In this document: one piece after another, positions 504 to 10,016 of the stretch
Position numbering within the stretch: the stretch's first letter is position 1
How the letters are laid out: every line of letters begins with the position of its first letter
IMG/VR virus record: IMGVR_UViG_3300000557_000578
Coordinates: 1-20,184 of that record
Strand: one strand, 5' to 3'
Source: a virus
DNA length: 20,184 nucleotides
Translations under genes and position numbers: made by a program
The notes under the pieces: model-generated
Database searches by the model: none
What the model was told of the DNA's origin: nothing
Seen by the model: only the letters and a program-made list of their open reading frames with translations

Positions 504-1265
504 ATGATTATATCTTTAGTAAATCAAAAAGGTGGCGTTACTAAAACCACTTCTGCTATCAATATAGGTGCAAGCCTATCTTTTCTTGGTCATAGGGTGC
601 TTTTAGTTGACCTTGACCCTCAAAGCAACTGTACAAGTGGTGTAGGCTTTAATAGTGAAGGTGAAAATAATATTTTTGATGTTTTAACTTTTAACAAAGA
701 TATAAATAGTTGTATTCATGAAACGGGTTATAAAAACTTATATATATTACCTTCTATTGATAGATTAGCTAATGTAGAACAAATATTAGTTAATGAAATG
801 GATAGAGAAAGAATTTTAAGAAATGAACTTAAAAAAATAGAAAATGATTATGATTTTATATTCTTAGATTGTCCACCTTCTTTAGGCTTAATAACATTAA
901 ATGCTTTAGTAGCAAGTGATAAACTATTAATACCTATGCTACCAAAACTATTTGCTTTTGAGGGTTTAACACTACTTTTAAACACTTATAAAAAAGTGAA
1001 AATAAAGATTAATAAAGATTTAGATATATTAGGCTCTTTCTTTTGCTATGTAGATAAGCGCACTAATATAGAAGAATATCGACAAGAATTAAAAGATATT
1101 TTTAAAGATAAATTTTTTGATAGTATCGTATATCAATATAAACATATCGCTGATTCACAAGAAGAAGGTACGCCTTTATGCTACCATAACAGAAGTTCAA
1201 AAGGTTCTCGTGAATACTTTAACCTTGCAAAGGAGATTTTAGAACATGCCCAAACAAAAGAATAA
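504..1265 (+). CDS. parA: ParA/Soj-family partition ATPase
   Basis: A 253-aa ParA-type ATPase for segregating low-copy DNA. The deviant Walker A box is at the N-terminus (KGGVTKTT, residues 9-16). The Walker A' box is DLDPQSN (36-42) and the Walker B box is FIFLDCPPS (118-126). The variant T in KGGVTKTT replaces the usual G, but both lysines are kept. There is no N-terminal HTH extension, so it is the short Soj/type Ib-like form. A GGAGG at 493-497 precedes the ATG. The 3' end overlaps the next gene by 20 nt, as in parAB operons. ParA binds DNA non-specifically in the ATP state and is stimulated by its ParB partner. A ParA in a phage window argues for plasmid-like maintenance, although soj-like genes also occur on chromosomes. 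Confidence 0.93.
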   Translation: MIISLVNQKGGVTKTTSAINIGASLSFLGHRVLLVDLDPQSNCTSGVGFNSEGENNIFDVLTFNKDINSCIHETGYKNLYILPSIDRLANVEQILVNEMDRERILRNELKKIENDYDFIFLDCPPSLGLITLNALVASDKLLIPMLPKLFAFEGLTLLLNTYKKVKIKINKDLDILGSFFCYVDKRTNIEEYRQELKDIFKDKFFDSIVYQYKHIADSQEEGTPLCYHNRSSKGSREYFNLAKEILEHAQTKE

Positions 1266-4205: not shown

Positions 4206-4403
4206 TTATAAAAATTTTTCTAAAACAGTTACTTCATCACGCCCAACCCATCTTTTAGCTTTAAGCCTATATTGAAAATAAGCTTTAGGTTCTCTAATAG
4301 TTTGAATCATTCTAATATCCCACAAATAGCCCTTTTCACCATCTATTTCAACTAAATCACCAACCTCTAAATCACTAACAGCCTGTGCATACTGATATTT
4401 CAT
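4206..4403 (-). CDS. Hypothetical small protein with a short SH3-like beta segment
   Basis: A 65-aa protein. Residues about 11-30 (DLEVGDLVEIDGEKGYLWDI) read as an L-x-V-G-D-x-V turn followed by beta strands, typical of small SH3-like barrels of the KOW or translation-factor kind. The remainder (YRLKAKRWVGRDEVTVLEKF) is basic then acidic. The SD AAAGGGG lies inside the 3' end of the Spo0E-like gene, whose stop is only 5 nt upstream of this ATG, so the two are very probably translationally linked. No function is known. Confidence 0.65.
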   Translation of the reverse strand: MKYQYAQAVSDLEVGDLVEIDGEKGYLWDIRMIQTIREPKAYFQYRLKAKRWVGRDEVTVLEKFL

Positions 4404-4408
4404 TTTTA

Positions 4409-4588
4409 CTAAGCCCCTTTATAGTTATTTAAATCTATTTTGAGAACTTCTATTATATGATTGTCTATGTATTGAGATAGTGCAAGCACTCTTTTTGACT
4501 TAAACCCTTCTTTAATAACAACATCATTAAGCCTTACTTTTAAAAACTCAATATCTTCTTCAATTATATCAACAATAGAATCGCCCAT
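4409..4588 (-). CDS. Spo0E-like sporulation phosphatase family protein (59 aa)
   Basis: A 59-aa helical protein matching the Spo0E/YnzD/YisI family of small aspartyl-phosphate phosphatases. In Bacillus the family removes phosphate from Spo0A~P and so delays sporulation. The N-terminal helix IIEEDIEFLKVRLNDVV is followed by a loop and the family signature, here LALSQYIDNHII (consensus LSQxLDxLI), in the second helix. Two antiparallel helices and about 60 residues are the normal family size. The ATG at 4588 has AGGAGAAGG about 7 nt upstream, a more canonical SD than most neighbours. The gene sits 28 nt after the zinc-ribbon-like gene and 5 nt before the next one. The direct target here, host Spo0A, is inferred from the family. 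Confidence 0.85.
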   Translation of the reverse strand: MGDSIVDIIEEDIEFLKVRLNDVVIKEGFKSKRVLALSQYIDNHIIEVLKIDLNNYKGA

Positions 4589-4616
4589 CTACCTTCTCCT
4601 TTAATATTTTTTTTAA

Positions 4617-4994
4617 TTAATATTTATTTTTTAAGCGTTTCATAAACTCACTTACATTTTCTTCATTATATTTTTGCTTTTGTTTTTTCTTTTTAGAATC
4701 TCTAATATTAAAATCTCTAAAAGATTTAAGAAAGCCTTCTAACTCTGCGCCTGTTAGTTGCTCTTTCATACTATTAATCATTTCTTCATCATTAAGCAAA
4801 TCATCAAATAATTCAGAAGTTTGGTCTTTGTGTATATTTATCAACTCGCTAATCAAAATATCCAATTCAAAAGGATTGATACTATCACACATAATTTTAA
4901 ACCCGTTATTTTTTTTAGCTACTATCATAAACCCATCACCTGTCATTACTTCTTTTCTTCCACAATCATCACAGTAATATTTTACCTTTTTCAT
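4617..4994 (-). CDS. Hypothetical protein with N-terminal CxxC zinc-binding-like knuckle
   Basis: A 125-aa protein. The N-terminus carries YYCDDCGRKE (CxxC at residues 7 and 10) and a further Cys in FKIMCDS, suggesting half of a zinc ribbon or a metal-bound dimer. The middle is acidic and helical (ISELINIHKDQTSELFDDLL). The C-terminus is strongly basic (DSKKKKQKQKYN). I chose ATG at 4994 because GGAAGGG lies about 10 nt upstream. An in-frame start at 5030 would add 12 residues across that SD. It is the first gene of the accessory transcription unit, behind the structured intergenic region. Function is unknown. Nucleic-acid binding is plausible from the Cys knuckle and basic tail. Confidence 0.7.
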   Translation of the reverse strand: MKKVKYYCDDCGRKEVMTGDGFMIVAKKNNGFKIMCDSINPFELDILISELINIHKDQTSELFDDLLNDEEMINSMKEQLTGAELEGFLKSFRDFNIRDSKKKKQKQKYNEENVSEFMKRLKNKY

Positions 4995-5030
4995 GATATA
5001 CAAACCCTTCCATTTTTTATTTTCTAACAA

Positions 5031-5197
5031 GATGTAAGCAACCAGCTTAAAAAAACACGATATTTCCTATAATGCATAATTTATGCAATAAAATGCTTAC
5101 AAATCGTTAAAATGGTTCTTCTTAGCAAGAATTATTGATAAAAACTACGCAAAACAAACCTTTTGCGCATATACTACATTTTTCTGCAATTTTCTTG
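5031..5197. promoter_or_regulatory. Structured intergenic region with three nested or adjacent inverted repeats
   Basis: This 167-bp non-coding stretch separates two minus-strand units. It contains the perfect dyad TGCATAA-T-TTATGCA (5073-5087), the pair TGTAAGCA/TGCTTACA (5033-5040 and 5094-5101) surrounding it, the pair TTAGCAAGAA/TTCTTGCTAA (5122-5131 and 5192-5201), and a 7-bp hairpin inside the last pair. The dyad probably marks an operator for the unit starting at 4994. On the minus strand it also contains CATAAATTA, which fits the -10 pattern of SigE/SigK promoters (CATANNNT), but no convincing -35 is present. No ordinary sigma-A promoter is clear. Confidence 0.5.
5137..5167 (-). terminator. 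Probable weak rho-independent terminator after the paralogue cluster
   Basis: On the minus strand, CGCAAAA (5167-5161) and TTTTGCG (5154-5148) pair perfectly across a 6-nt loop. The hairpin is followed by TAGTTTTTAT. It lies 31 nt after the stop at 5198. The stem is AT-rich, so termination may be partial. Confidence 0.5.
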
Positions 5198-5533
5198 CTA
5201 AATATTCTCTTTTTCTCTTATCATTGCCTTTACTTTCTCAATTTCTTCTTCTCTAGGCTTTATATTGCTTTTAATGTATTTAAATTTCAAATAAACCCTA
5301 TTTGCAAAATAAATGTTAGTTATTGCTAAAGATAAGTAAAAAAATCCTGATAGTATCGAATTGCTCAAAAATTCATTAATTGCTACAATACTTACAAAAA
5401 ATATAACTAATGCAGAAAAGCCCAAACTTATATAAGTATTTCTAACAGAATTTTTTGCCCCTTCATTAATTTCTTCCAACATCTTCAACCTATCTTCTAA
5501 ATTAGTAATCTCATATTTTTCTAATTTATTCAC
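5198..5533 (-). CDS. Small membrane protein with two transmembrane helices (paralogue A)
   Basis: A 111-aa protein. An acidic/basic helix with TNLEDRLKMLEEINEGAKNS comes first. It is followed by two hydrophobic segments, about residues 35-56 (ISLGFSALVIFFVSIVAI) and 60-80 (ILSGFFYLSLAITNIYFA), and then a charged helix with IKPREEEIEKVK. It is clearly paralogous to the preceding gene (NLxDRLKxL, then TNIYFANRVYLKFK against LNTYYGVKLYLERK, then the xxPREEEI block). The start is GTG at 5533, overlapping the upstream TGA, so it probably depends on reinitiation. A G6 run directly abuts it. Size and topology would suit a holin-like or regulatory membrane protein. The cluster is not next to the endolysin, so the role is open. 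Confidence 0.75.
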   Translation of the reverse strand: MNKLEKYEITNLEDRLKMLEEINEGAKNSVRNTYISLGFSALVIFFVSIVAINEFLSNSILSGFFYLSLAITNIYFANRVYLKFKYIKSNIKPREEEIEKVKAMIREKENI

Positions 5534-7325: not shown

Positions 7326-7880
7326 TTAATGTGCTTTTATCTTTAATCTTACTTTTTTACTTGCTCTTTTTAATATCCTGCATACATAGCTTTGAGTAAT
7401 ATTTATTTCTTTTGCTATTTCCCTCTGATTCTTATTTTCAAAAAAAGATTTAATGAAAATTATTTTTTCTCTATCAGTTAACTCTTTTTCAATTATTTCT
7501 TTTACGCTTATCATATCATCAACAATAATAGTTTTATCATCTACTTCTAATTTTTCAATTAAATCTCTATGATAAACTTCAACGCCAGTATCATCATAAC
7601 TAATAAGCATATCTGTAAAAGTATTGCATCTTTGCTGTAACTTAGATTCACTTTTTCTTAATTCCATTTTAATTTCATTATCAATACATACACTTGCAAA
7701 AGTTATAAATTTTAACCCTCTGCTAAAGTCAAAATTAACACCAGCTTTAGTAATGCCAACATAACATAATTGTAAAAGTTCTTCATTGTCTAAGCTAGTA
7801 TTAAGGGTTTTCCATTTATTAAGTTTGAAGTATATAAAATTATAATTATCTTCAATCAATTTTTTTCTTCTTTCATTCAT
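7326..7880 (-). CDS. Phage-encoded RNA polymerase sigma factor, sigma-70 family, sporulation-like
   Basis: A 184-aa sigma factor with regions 2 and 4 only. Region 2 spans about residues 10-78 and contains DNEELLQLCYVGITKA and FITFASVCIDNEIKMELRK. The latter closely matches the Y-A-x-R-C-I-E-N-E-I-x-M-x-L-R block of SigE and SigK, although the Arg is replaced by Val. Region 4 spans about 125-181: LTDREKIIFIKSFF, then the HTH NQREIAKEINITQSYVCRI and a basic tail. Its ATG overlaps the stop of the 53-aa gene upstream (ATGA), so the two are translationally coupled. It probably redirects host RNA polymerase to phage late promoters or to sporulation-type promoters. The target promoters are not identified. 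Confidence 0.9.
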   Translation of the reverse strand: MNERRKKLIEDNYNFIYFKLNKWKTLNTSLDNEELLQLCYVGITKAGVNFDFSRGLKFITFASVCIDNEIKMELRKSESKLQQRCNTFTDMLISYDDTGVEVYHRDLIEKLEVDDKTIIVDDMISVKEIIEKELTDREKIIFIKSFFENKNQREIAKEINITQSYVCRILKRASKKVRLKIKAH

Positions 7881-8040: not shown

Positions 8041-8310
8041 CTACATTGCCCCTTCTTTGTATAATTTCTTAGTGCTTAAACCGCCCCTTTTAACCGCTTC
8101 TGATTTATTGGTTTTTATAATATCTTTAACTTTTAGATATAAATTGTAGTCTATATTTTTAAGCTTTTTTGTTACATCTACATGTATTTGAGTTTTGCCA
8201 ACGGGAAAGGCTTTTTCTGCTTGCCTTAAAGTGCATTTATTTTCTATAATATAGTTTGCTTCTTCAATTATTCTTTTTTCTATATAAATTTCTGCTTGCT
8301 CTTTATTCAT
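8041..8310 (-). CDS. spoIIID: SpoIIID-family sporulation transcriptional regulator homologue
   Basis: An 89-aa DNA-binding protein, close to the 93 aa of Bacillus SpoIIID. Residues about 13-50 hold the HTH (EEANYIIENKCTLRQAEKAF, then VGKTQIHVDVTKKL), aligning with the family's KxTVRxxAKxFGVSKSTVHKDLTxRL. The C-terminal basic segment KRGGLSTKKLYK (about 74-85) matches the RGGEATKxKY ending that contacts DNA in SpoIIID. In sporulating cells SpoIIID acts in the mother cell with SigE and controls sigK and coat genes. I chose ATG at 8310 over GTG at 8325 because the GGGTGG/GGTTGG stretch lies upstream of the ATG. It heads a three-gene cassette with the sigma factor. A distant viral copy could either mimic or compete with host SpoIIID. 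Confidence 0.88.
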   Translation of the reverse strand: MNKEQAEIYIEKRIIEEANYIIENKCTLRQAEKAFPVGKTQIHVDVTKKLKNIDYNLYLKVKDIIKTNKSEAVKRGGLSTKKLYKEGAM

Positions 8311-8350
8311 AATTAAACCAACCACCCTATTTTAGAAAATATATTTTAAT

Positions 8351-8422: not shown

Positions 8423-8998
8423 TTATTTTTCATATTCTAGCATATCATTATTTTTATCAACATATTTTTTCAAGCCAACTACAACAGCATTTGCATACTT
8501 ATGCCAGTTATCTAATAGATTTTCTCTATCATCTTTTCTATCAATAAAACCATATTCTATTATTAAAGCCTGTGTTTTATCTAAAGTATTTCTATTAATA
8601 AAGAAATAATCTTTGCCACTTAAATTAGGGTGTCCTACCGTATAAATACGCCTTCTTCTCTGCCCTTTTTCTACTATACTATCAAGTAACATATCAGCAA
8701 GTACACCATCATCACGTTTTGAATATATTATCTCTGCACCTTCGCCACCGCCTGCATTTATATGGTTGCTTAATACAAAGTGTGGCTTAAAATTATTTAT
8801 TCTTTTTATTCTTTCTTTAGCCCTTAAAGTTTCATCACCGTATCTAGTTAATACTACTGAAAAGTTTAGCTTTTTTAACTCTTTTAGCTGTAGATGTGAT
8901 ATTTTTAAAGCAAGTTCTTTTTCTTTTACATCACCATAACTAGCGCCATCATCTATGCCACCATGCCCAGCATCAATTACTACTCTAGGTTTACTCAT
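8423..8998 (-). CDS. Endolysin: N-acetylmuramoyl-L-alanine amidase (Amidase_3 family)
   Basis: A 191-aa zinc amidase that cuts the bond between N-acetylmuramic acid and L-alanine in peptidoglycan. The Amidase_3 landmarks are present: IDAGHGG (zinc His12), VKEKELAL (zinc Glu26), SNHINAG (zinc His79) and the catalytic-site Glu148 in IIEYGFID. The catalytic domain fills the protein. No signal peptide, membrane segment or separate wall-binding domain is seen, so export would depend on a holin. ATG at 8998 has GGGGG 13 nt upstream, which is rather long. It is the last gene of the structural operon and directly precedes the terminator. No holin lies beside it. Confidence 0.93.
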   Translation of the reverse strand: MSKPRVVIDAGHGGIDDGASYGDVKEKELALKISHLQLKELKKLNFSVVLTRYGDETLRAKERIKRINNFKPHFVLSNHINAGGGEGAEIIYSKRDDGVLADMLLDSIVEKGQRRRRIYTVGHPNLSGKDYFFINRNTLDKTQALIIEYGFIDRKDDRENLLDNWHKYANAVVVGLKKYVDKNNDMLEYEK

Positions 8999-9017: not shown

Positions 9018-10016
9018 TTAATTATTATTTTGCTCTAATGCTAAAAAATCAGTAACATCACCTTGCCCATATGCTAAATTACTTATTACTACTGTATTAG
9101 GGTCAATATCTGTACCTACAATGGTTGCGCCTAAATTCCCTGAAGAATTTCTTGCAATTACTGATAAATGTATTTCATCACCTTCATTTAAAAATCTTAT
9201 TCTAGTAAAAGCCTGCGCTATAGTACCGCCTACACCGCTTCTATGTACTTGGTCTCTTTCAACCTCTGTACCATTTAAAAACATGCTAACCTCTAAAGCG
9301 CTATCACCTGCAACCCCTGAAAAGTGTCGCATATAATATTGAATTAGATATAAACCACTTTTATTTATAGTAATTATTGTGTTGTCAACACCTAAATTAA
9401 AAAAATTATTATTATCAAATAAAACTTCGCCCCACTCAATTATAACATTTGCATTTTGTGGTGTATCTATAGATGAAGTAATTCTTGCCTTGCCAGTTTC
9501 AGGCAAATTGTGGTATATTCTCAAAGCATCAAAACTAGTATGGTGGCTTATATCTCTTGTATCTTCTATATCTTGTTGTACTATACTAACGGTTTCTAGT
9601 TGTTCAACATATACATTAGCCAGCCCTATTTCATATACTAAATTATTTTGAGTTAATAAAGGCGGTTCAGGCTCAATAGCAGGCACGCCTTCAACTACAT
9701 CAATAACTACTGCCCTTACCCCTGTATTTCTATCCATTCTAGCAACTATAGTATCTATTCTATCATTATTACCATCACCATCACTTATTGTAATATTTTC
9801 AGGGTTTTCTCTAACTCTAAAAAACCTACCTTGTACCCACCCTGTGCCTAGCTGTACATCAACACTCATGCCAGCCCCTGCCAATACCTCTAATTCATCT
9901 TCAACGCCTGCGCAAATACCATTAAGGCTTAATACATTTAAACTTCTGCTAAACTGTGTAGCACTATATACCCTATCGCCATCTATGCTTTCAAAAAATT
10001 TGCTTTCTACTACCAT
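9018..10016 (-). CDS. Putative receptor-binding/tail tip protein with C-terminal C1q-like jelly roll
   Basis: A 332-aa virion protein. Residues about 1-130 (FFESIDGDRVYSATQFSRSL, then GMSVDVQLGTGWVQGRFF) resemble the N-terminal baseplate-attachment part of siphovirus receptor-binding or upper-baseplate proteins. Residues about 185-316 have the strand pattern of C1q/TNF-like trimeric jelly rolls: ITINKSGLYLIQYYMRHF, LEVSMFLNGTEV, FLNEGDEIHLSVIARN. Such heads bind sugars or proteins on the host surface. ATG at 10016 is preceded by GGGGG at 11 nt spacing. It follows the tail hub gene and precedes the endolysin, the normal place for the receptor-binding protein. Trimer formation and receptor are inferred. 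Confidence 0.75.
   Translation of the reverse strand: MVVESKFFESIDGDRVYSATQFSRSLNVLSLNGICAGVEDELEVLAGAGMSVDVQLGTGWVQGRFFRVRENPENITISDGDGNNDRIDTIVARMDRNTGVRAVVIDVVEGVPAIEPEPPLLTQNNLVYEIGLANVYVEQLETVSIVQQDIEDTRDISHHTSFDALRIYHNLPETGKARITSSIDTPQNANVIIEWGEVLFDNNNFFNLGVDNTIITINKSGLYLIQYYMRHFSGVAGDSALEVSMFLNGTEVERDQVHRSGVGGTIAQAFTRIRFLNEGDEIHLSVIARNSSGNLGATIVGTDIDPNTVVISNLAYGQGDVTDFLALEQNNN

Follow-up and report, generated by a model that had tools for sequence, protein, structure and literature searches.

Sporulation is a refuge from phages, and a Spo0E-like protein made by a phage would directly keep its host out of that refuge. The Spo0E of Bacillus is a small phosphatase that acts directly on Spo0A to inactivate it, and the Asp of the SxxxD signature is critical in the B. 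subtilis protein (PMC11115286). Spo0E also inactivates Spo0A in C. difficile, where a spo0E mutant over-sporulates and where, in a modelled complex, the two Spo0E helices lie against Spo0A, D42 of the SxxxD motif forms part of the interface, and the phosphorylation site seems to be blocked (PMC11115286). Spo0E-like proteins are further found in bacteria that do not sporulate, and they can regulate motility and toxin genes, so that sporulation need not be the output (PMC11115286).

Spo0E genes have been reported from Brevibacillus phages such as SecTim467 (PMC4909266) and, as gp51, from the Geobacillus phage TP-84 (PMC10969951); further phage Spo0E annotations are those of Sundance (Brevibacillus), PK2.1 (Geobacillus), and vB_BpsM-61 (Bacillus pseudofirmus). 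Viral spo0E homologues have also been described beside RRNPP quorum-sensing genes in phages and prophages, and manipulation of host sporulation was proposed for them (Bernard et al. 2023, PMC10075063). A 2023 survey of phage sporulation genes includes spoIIID, sporulation sigma factors, parA/soj, and cwlD (Schwartz et al. 2023, PMC10294663). Among the papers searched, we found none testing a phage-encoded Spo0E-like protein during infection. As phage Spo0E-like genes have already been published (PMC4909266, PMC10075063, PMC10969951), the gene described below is less novel than the first-pass annotation of this DNA implied: what is new is a divergent example of a Spo0E gene on a phage and not a new kind of gene.

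The window analyzed here comprises 20,184 nucleotides, positions 1 to 20,184 of IMG/VR record IMGVR_UViG_3300000557_000578, a linear tailed-phage fragment of 33,036 bases. The gene of interest and its surroundings are as follows.

4409..4588, minus strand: Spo0E-like gene, 59 amino acids, ATG start; product MGDSIVDIIEEDIEFLKVRLNDVVIKEGFKSKRVLALSQYIDNHIIEVLKIDLNNYKGA
4596..4601, minus strand: its ribosome-binding site, AAGGAG, separated from the ATG by 7 nt, read directly from the sequence
4617..5030, minus strand: upstream neighbor, 125 to 137 amino acids depending on the start chosen; no Pfam family at cut-off
4206..4403, minus strand: downstream neighbor, 65 amino acids; no Pfam family
5146..5169, minus strand: terminator-like stem-loop with a T tail

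The DNA 5' of the ATG reads AAAGGAGAAGGTAG. The gene begins 28 nt after the stop of its upstream neighbor (4617), and only 5 nt separate its own stop from the start of the downstream neighbor (4403), all on the same strand. With a codon-usage model trained on late genes of the same phage, this frame alone scored positive (+0.21, versus −0.49 to −1.61 for the other frames), and its score was similar to those of the neighboring genes. The ribosome-binding-site spacing, the position in a tight leftward row, and the late-gene-like codon usage together indicate that the open reading frame is probably a real gene. The first-pass annotation had proposed it with the same coordinates and strand and had pointed to its well-spaced Shine-Dalgarno sequence and its tight packing, all of which were borne out. 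The stem-loop at 5146..5169 is one of two terminator-like sites in the region (0.4 expected) and would stop the 5198-5533 transcript; hence, a separate leftward unit would begin beyond it, and we infer that this unit extends through the Spo0E-like gene. By-eye reading also revealed a near-palindrome, GCATAATTTATGC, at about 5070-5090 in the gap preceding the leftward gene row, a possible candidate operator. On the far side of the stem-loop, 5198-5533/5530-5859 and 5881-6375/6398-6808 are adjacent pairs of apparent gene duplicates with no Pfam family, the first pair resembling small membrane proteins.

The assignment of the product to the Spo0E family is carried by its sequence. The search with PF09388 that the first-pass annotation had suggested gave 32.9 bits against a cut-off of 23 (E = 6.2e-8; profile positions 1 to 40 of 42), and this match was the only one in the whole 33,036-base record. 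An independent HMM was built from ten proteins annotated as Spo0E family, encoded on Bacilli plasmids and by two phages, with the window protein left out. Among all 493 stop-to-stop frames of at least 25 amino acids in the record, this HMM ranked the window frame first at 22.7 bits, with the runner-up at 5.5 bits, and all 20,000 composition-matched shuffles stayed below it (best, 18.4 bits). The LSQYID stretch that had first drawn attention to the gene lies at residues 37 to 42, its SQYID signature at residues 38 to 42. In an alignment of the window protein with the ten annotated members, S38 and D42, the two fixed residues of SxxxD, are the only invariant columns. The core SQELD is common and not defining: the annotated members also have SQFID (in a Priestia plasmid member), SMELD, SKELD, SQKLD, and SQQLD. 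In the window protein, SQYID stands in the place of SQELD, and helix 1 lacks its customary Arg, which is replaced. Its 59 residues fall within the range of 40 to 100 amino acids used for Spo0E-like proteins in PMC11115286. No NCBIfam model matched the window protein, a result that is uninformative since two Spo0E controls were unmatched too. The profile of the alignment matched the solved structures 2c0s (E = 7e-15) and 2bzb (E = 6e-12), although it was built mostly from known members. A match to PF02760 (HIN) at 19.5 bits was subthreshold, with a corresponding hit to 5z7d at E = 0.04; a HIN-200 identity was therefore rejected and the match taken as chance.

A helical hairpin, the other family mark named at first pass, was likewise recovered. 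AlphaFold2 run on the single sequence predicted helix 1 at residues 5 to 27 and helix 2 at residues 32 to 58, with a mean pLDDT of 75.6 and a pTM of 0.42. The structural comparison with Spo0E that had been proposed gave a mixed outcome: 2c0s ranked first among 350,542 PDB chains in Foldseek, but the match was weak (E = 1.1; 29% identity), and the VIA-align Z score of 5.8 is unspecific, as two-helix hairpins are common and many unrelated chains score similarly. The fold is thus consistent with membership and not an independent proof of it. Taken together, the Pfam cut-off, the SxxxD signature, the independent HMM, and the predicted two-helix hairpin support the placement of the 59-residue product in the Spo0E family.

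Within that family the window protein is a very divergent member. Its identity to the sampled Spo0E proteins in the alignment is 16 to 33%, with one pair at 41% over 32 residues. A tblastn search with the window protein at an E of 10 found no match in 50,697 phage records or 72,556 plasmid records, and a peptide-pattern scan of IMG/VR, which finds close relatives only, found no relative. Neither a Spo0E-like consensus query, perhaps masked as low complexity, nor a viral scan with plasmid Spo0E proteins as queries returned a phage or viral match, respectively. A coiled-coil viral protein with a chance QELDTLI (L152), from a second scan with plasmid Spo0E queries, was rejected as a relative. A plasmid search with a Spo0E sequence as bait found such genes to be common on plasmids of Bacilli.

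The record as a whole carries portal (PF06074), E-type capsid, XkdF-like protease, tape measure, and tail genes, and host contamination was rejected on that basis. No terminase was seen on its 33,036 bases, so that the record is probably incomplete. Its GC content is 31 to 32%, falling to 27% in the early region. The following genes bear on lysogeny.

504..1265, plus strand: ParA partition ATPase (PF13614, 196 bits; phrog_164, 213 bits)
88-501, beside ParA: Cro/C1-type repressor (HTH_3)
1246-1734, beside ParA: lysine/asparagine-rich open reading frame

The ParA and C1-type repressor genes suggest plasmid-like lysogeny. Relatives of the portal and capsid are present in IMG/VR, and no tape measure relatives were found; a capsid scan of genome contigs returned distant matches only, in MAGs of Thiotrichales, Ignavibacteria, and Sulfuricurvum. 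A Spo0E-like match was seen in 0 of 50 related phage records, an absence that is weak evidence because many of these records are fragments. The genes around the Spo0E-like gene had no relative in the related-phage loci compared, and the region therefore looks like an accessory module. Elsewhere on the record, at about 27154-29274 (L002:6970-9090), a 706-residue protein combines an XkdF-like prohead serine protease with uracil-DNA-glycosylase-like and rubrerythrin/rubredoxin-like domains; a related record (G001) has a 1,255-residue protein at the corresponding place, with glycosylase-like and protease parts that are similar by eye.

Three further genes that resemble sporulation genes lie in the window.

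8041..8325, minus strand: SpoIIID-like regulator, 94 amino acids (PF12116, 80.7 bits, cut-off 27; phrog_11726)
7326..7880, minus strand: sigma-70-family factor, 184 amino acids, best full-length match SigK (phrog_351)
8423..8998, minus strand: N-acetylmuramoyl-L-alanine amidase, Amidase_3, CwlD-like (PF01520, 98.2 bits)

By profile score the gene at 8041..8325 is SpoIIID-like; its 72.2 bits against TIGR02844 are below the equivalog cut-off of 111.5. It lies outside the gene row of the Spo0E-like gene on the same record and is the best sign that the host, probably a low-GC bacterium, is a spore former. A SpoIIID-like gene exceeded the cut-off in 4 of the 50 related phage records, including the closest by portal or capsid, and in at least one of them its location, directly after the portal gene, differs from that on this contig; an IMG/VR search with the SpoIIID-like protein found no close relative. 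The sigma factor (84.9 bits against NF004471, below the cut-off of 252) may serve late phage genes, and the CwlD-like amidase (64.6 bits against TIGR02883, below cut-off) is probably simply an endolysin. In the tail region, the protein encoded at 9018-10016 resembles the C-terminal domain of BclA, an exosporium protein, at a subthreshold score (23.2 bits; cut-off, 38).

Based on what is known of the family, we hypothesize that this phage hairpin binds the receiver domain of host Spo0A, lowers Spo0A~P, and keeps the cell vegetative, a reading to which we give a probability of roughly 0.6. The gene would be translated within the leftward row of small early-region genes, and the 59-residue hairpin would bind the phosphorylated receiver domain with D42 of SxxxD positioned at the active site. 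Spo0A~P would then be lowered either through hydrolysis or through blocked phosphorylation, the threshold for sporulation would rise, and an infected or lysogenic cell would stay vegetative, such that fewer cells sporulate. We infer from the family that Spo0A is the target, that the protein acts as a phosphatase or by blocking, when it is expressed, and what the phage gains. Against this reading stand the low identity and the lack of tblastn matches, the replaced SQELD core and helix 1 Arg, the weak match of a common fold, the subthreshold HIN score, the presence of Spo0E-like proteins in bacteria that do not sporulate, and the absence of a Spo0E-like match from the 50 related phage records. 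The idea put forward at first pass, that delayed sporulation keeps the host productive, is plausible, and so is the anti-dormancy role it implies, which has been published in outline.

The main rival accepts a true Spo0E-family protein with a different output: it would bind a TPR regulator, or a receiver domain other than that of Spo0A, and tune motility, competence, or lysogeny. Spo0E orthologs occur in non-sporulating and non-motile bacteria, and the C. difficile protein binds RstA (PMC11115286); further, the change of the core from SQELD to SQYID means that partner choice may differ. However, the SpoIIID-like gene on the contig points to a spore former, the signature Asp and Ser are retained, and no RRNPP or TPR regulator was found among the neighboring proteins scanned. 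We regard this rival as possible though unlikely.

Alternatively, the gene could be a passenger from a host chromosome or plasmid that serves no function for the phage. The frequency of Spo0E genes on Bacilli plasmids, the location of the SecTim467 Spo0E gene in a putative transposable region (PMC4909266), and the absence of the gene from the 50 related phage records would all fit such an origin. It is nevertheless improbable, given the intact frame, the good Shine-Dalgarno sequence, the phage-like codon usage, and the tight packing among phage genes, and the divergence from known Spo0E proteins is too large for the gene to have been acquired recently from any of the sampled plasmids or phages. 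Least probable of all is convergence, in which an unrelated small helical phage protein happens to combine a two-helix hairpin and an SxxxD stretch: the low identity, the generic fold (E = 1.1, with unrelated chains at similar Z), and the subthreshold HIN match leave some room for it, but the score exceeds a curated cut-off with a match covering profile positions 1 to 40 of 42 and stands 4.3 bits over the best of 20,000 shuffles and 17 bits over the next frame.

The Spo0A-directed reading could also be extended to a coordinated set, in which the Spo0E-like brake would act first and the SpoIIID-like and SigK-like regulators, with the CwlD-like amidase, would then turn the mother-cell program to phage late genes. 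Such a phage would block entry into sporulation and redirect the mother-cell program once sporulation had started; we consider this extension doubtful. More generally, a divergent 59-residue SQYID member on the same contig as SpoIIID-like and SigK-like genes supports the view that phages have captured sporulation regulators repeatedly, and the Spo0E-like gene is a small, easily assayed candidate.

Compared with the solved B. anthracis Spo0E-like phosphatases 2c0s and 2bzb, the window protein is likewise predicted to be a two-helix hairpin of about 60 residues with SxxxD on helix 2. Those are cellular proteins to which its identity is low and its fold match weak, and its own activity is a prediction. 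The phage counterparts, SecTim467 gp70, TP-84 gp51, and the Spo0E proteins of Sundance, PK2.1, and vB_BpsM-61, are encoded, as here, by a small Spo0E-family gene on the genome of a phage of a spore former, although the host of this contig is only probably spore-forming. The two of them that were aligned, from SecTim467 and TP-84, keep the signature S and D as the window protein does, but their cores are SQQLD and SQELD, respectively, in place of SQYID, and none of the five matches the window protein by tblastn. The RRNPP-linked genes are viral spo0E homologues as well, whereas no RRNPP receptor was found here among the neighbors scanned. Finally, spoIIID, sporulation sigma factors, parA/soj, and cwlD, as surveyed by Schwartz et al. 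(2023), all have counterparts on this contig, which also carries a Spo0E-like gene; spo0E is absent from Table 1 of that survey (PMC10294663).
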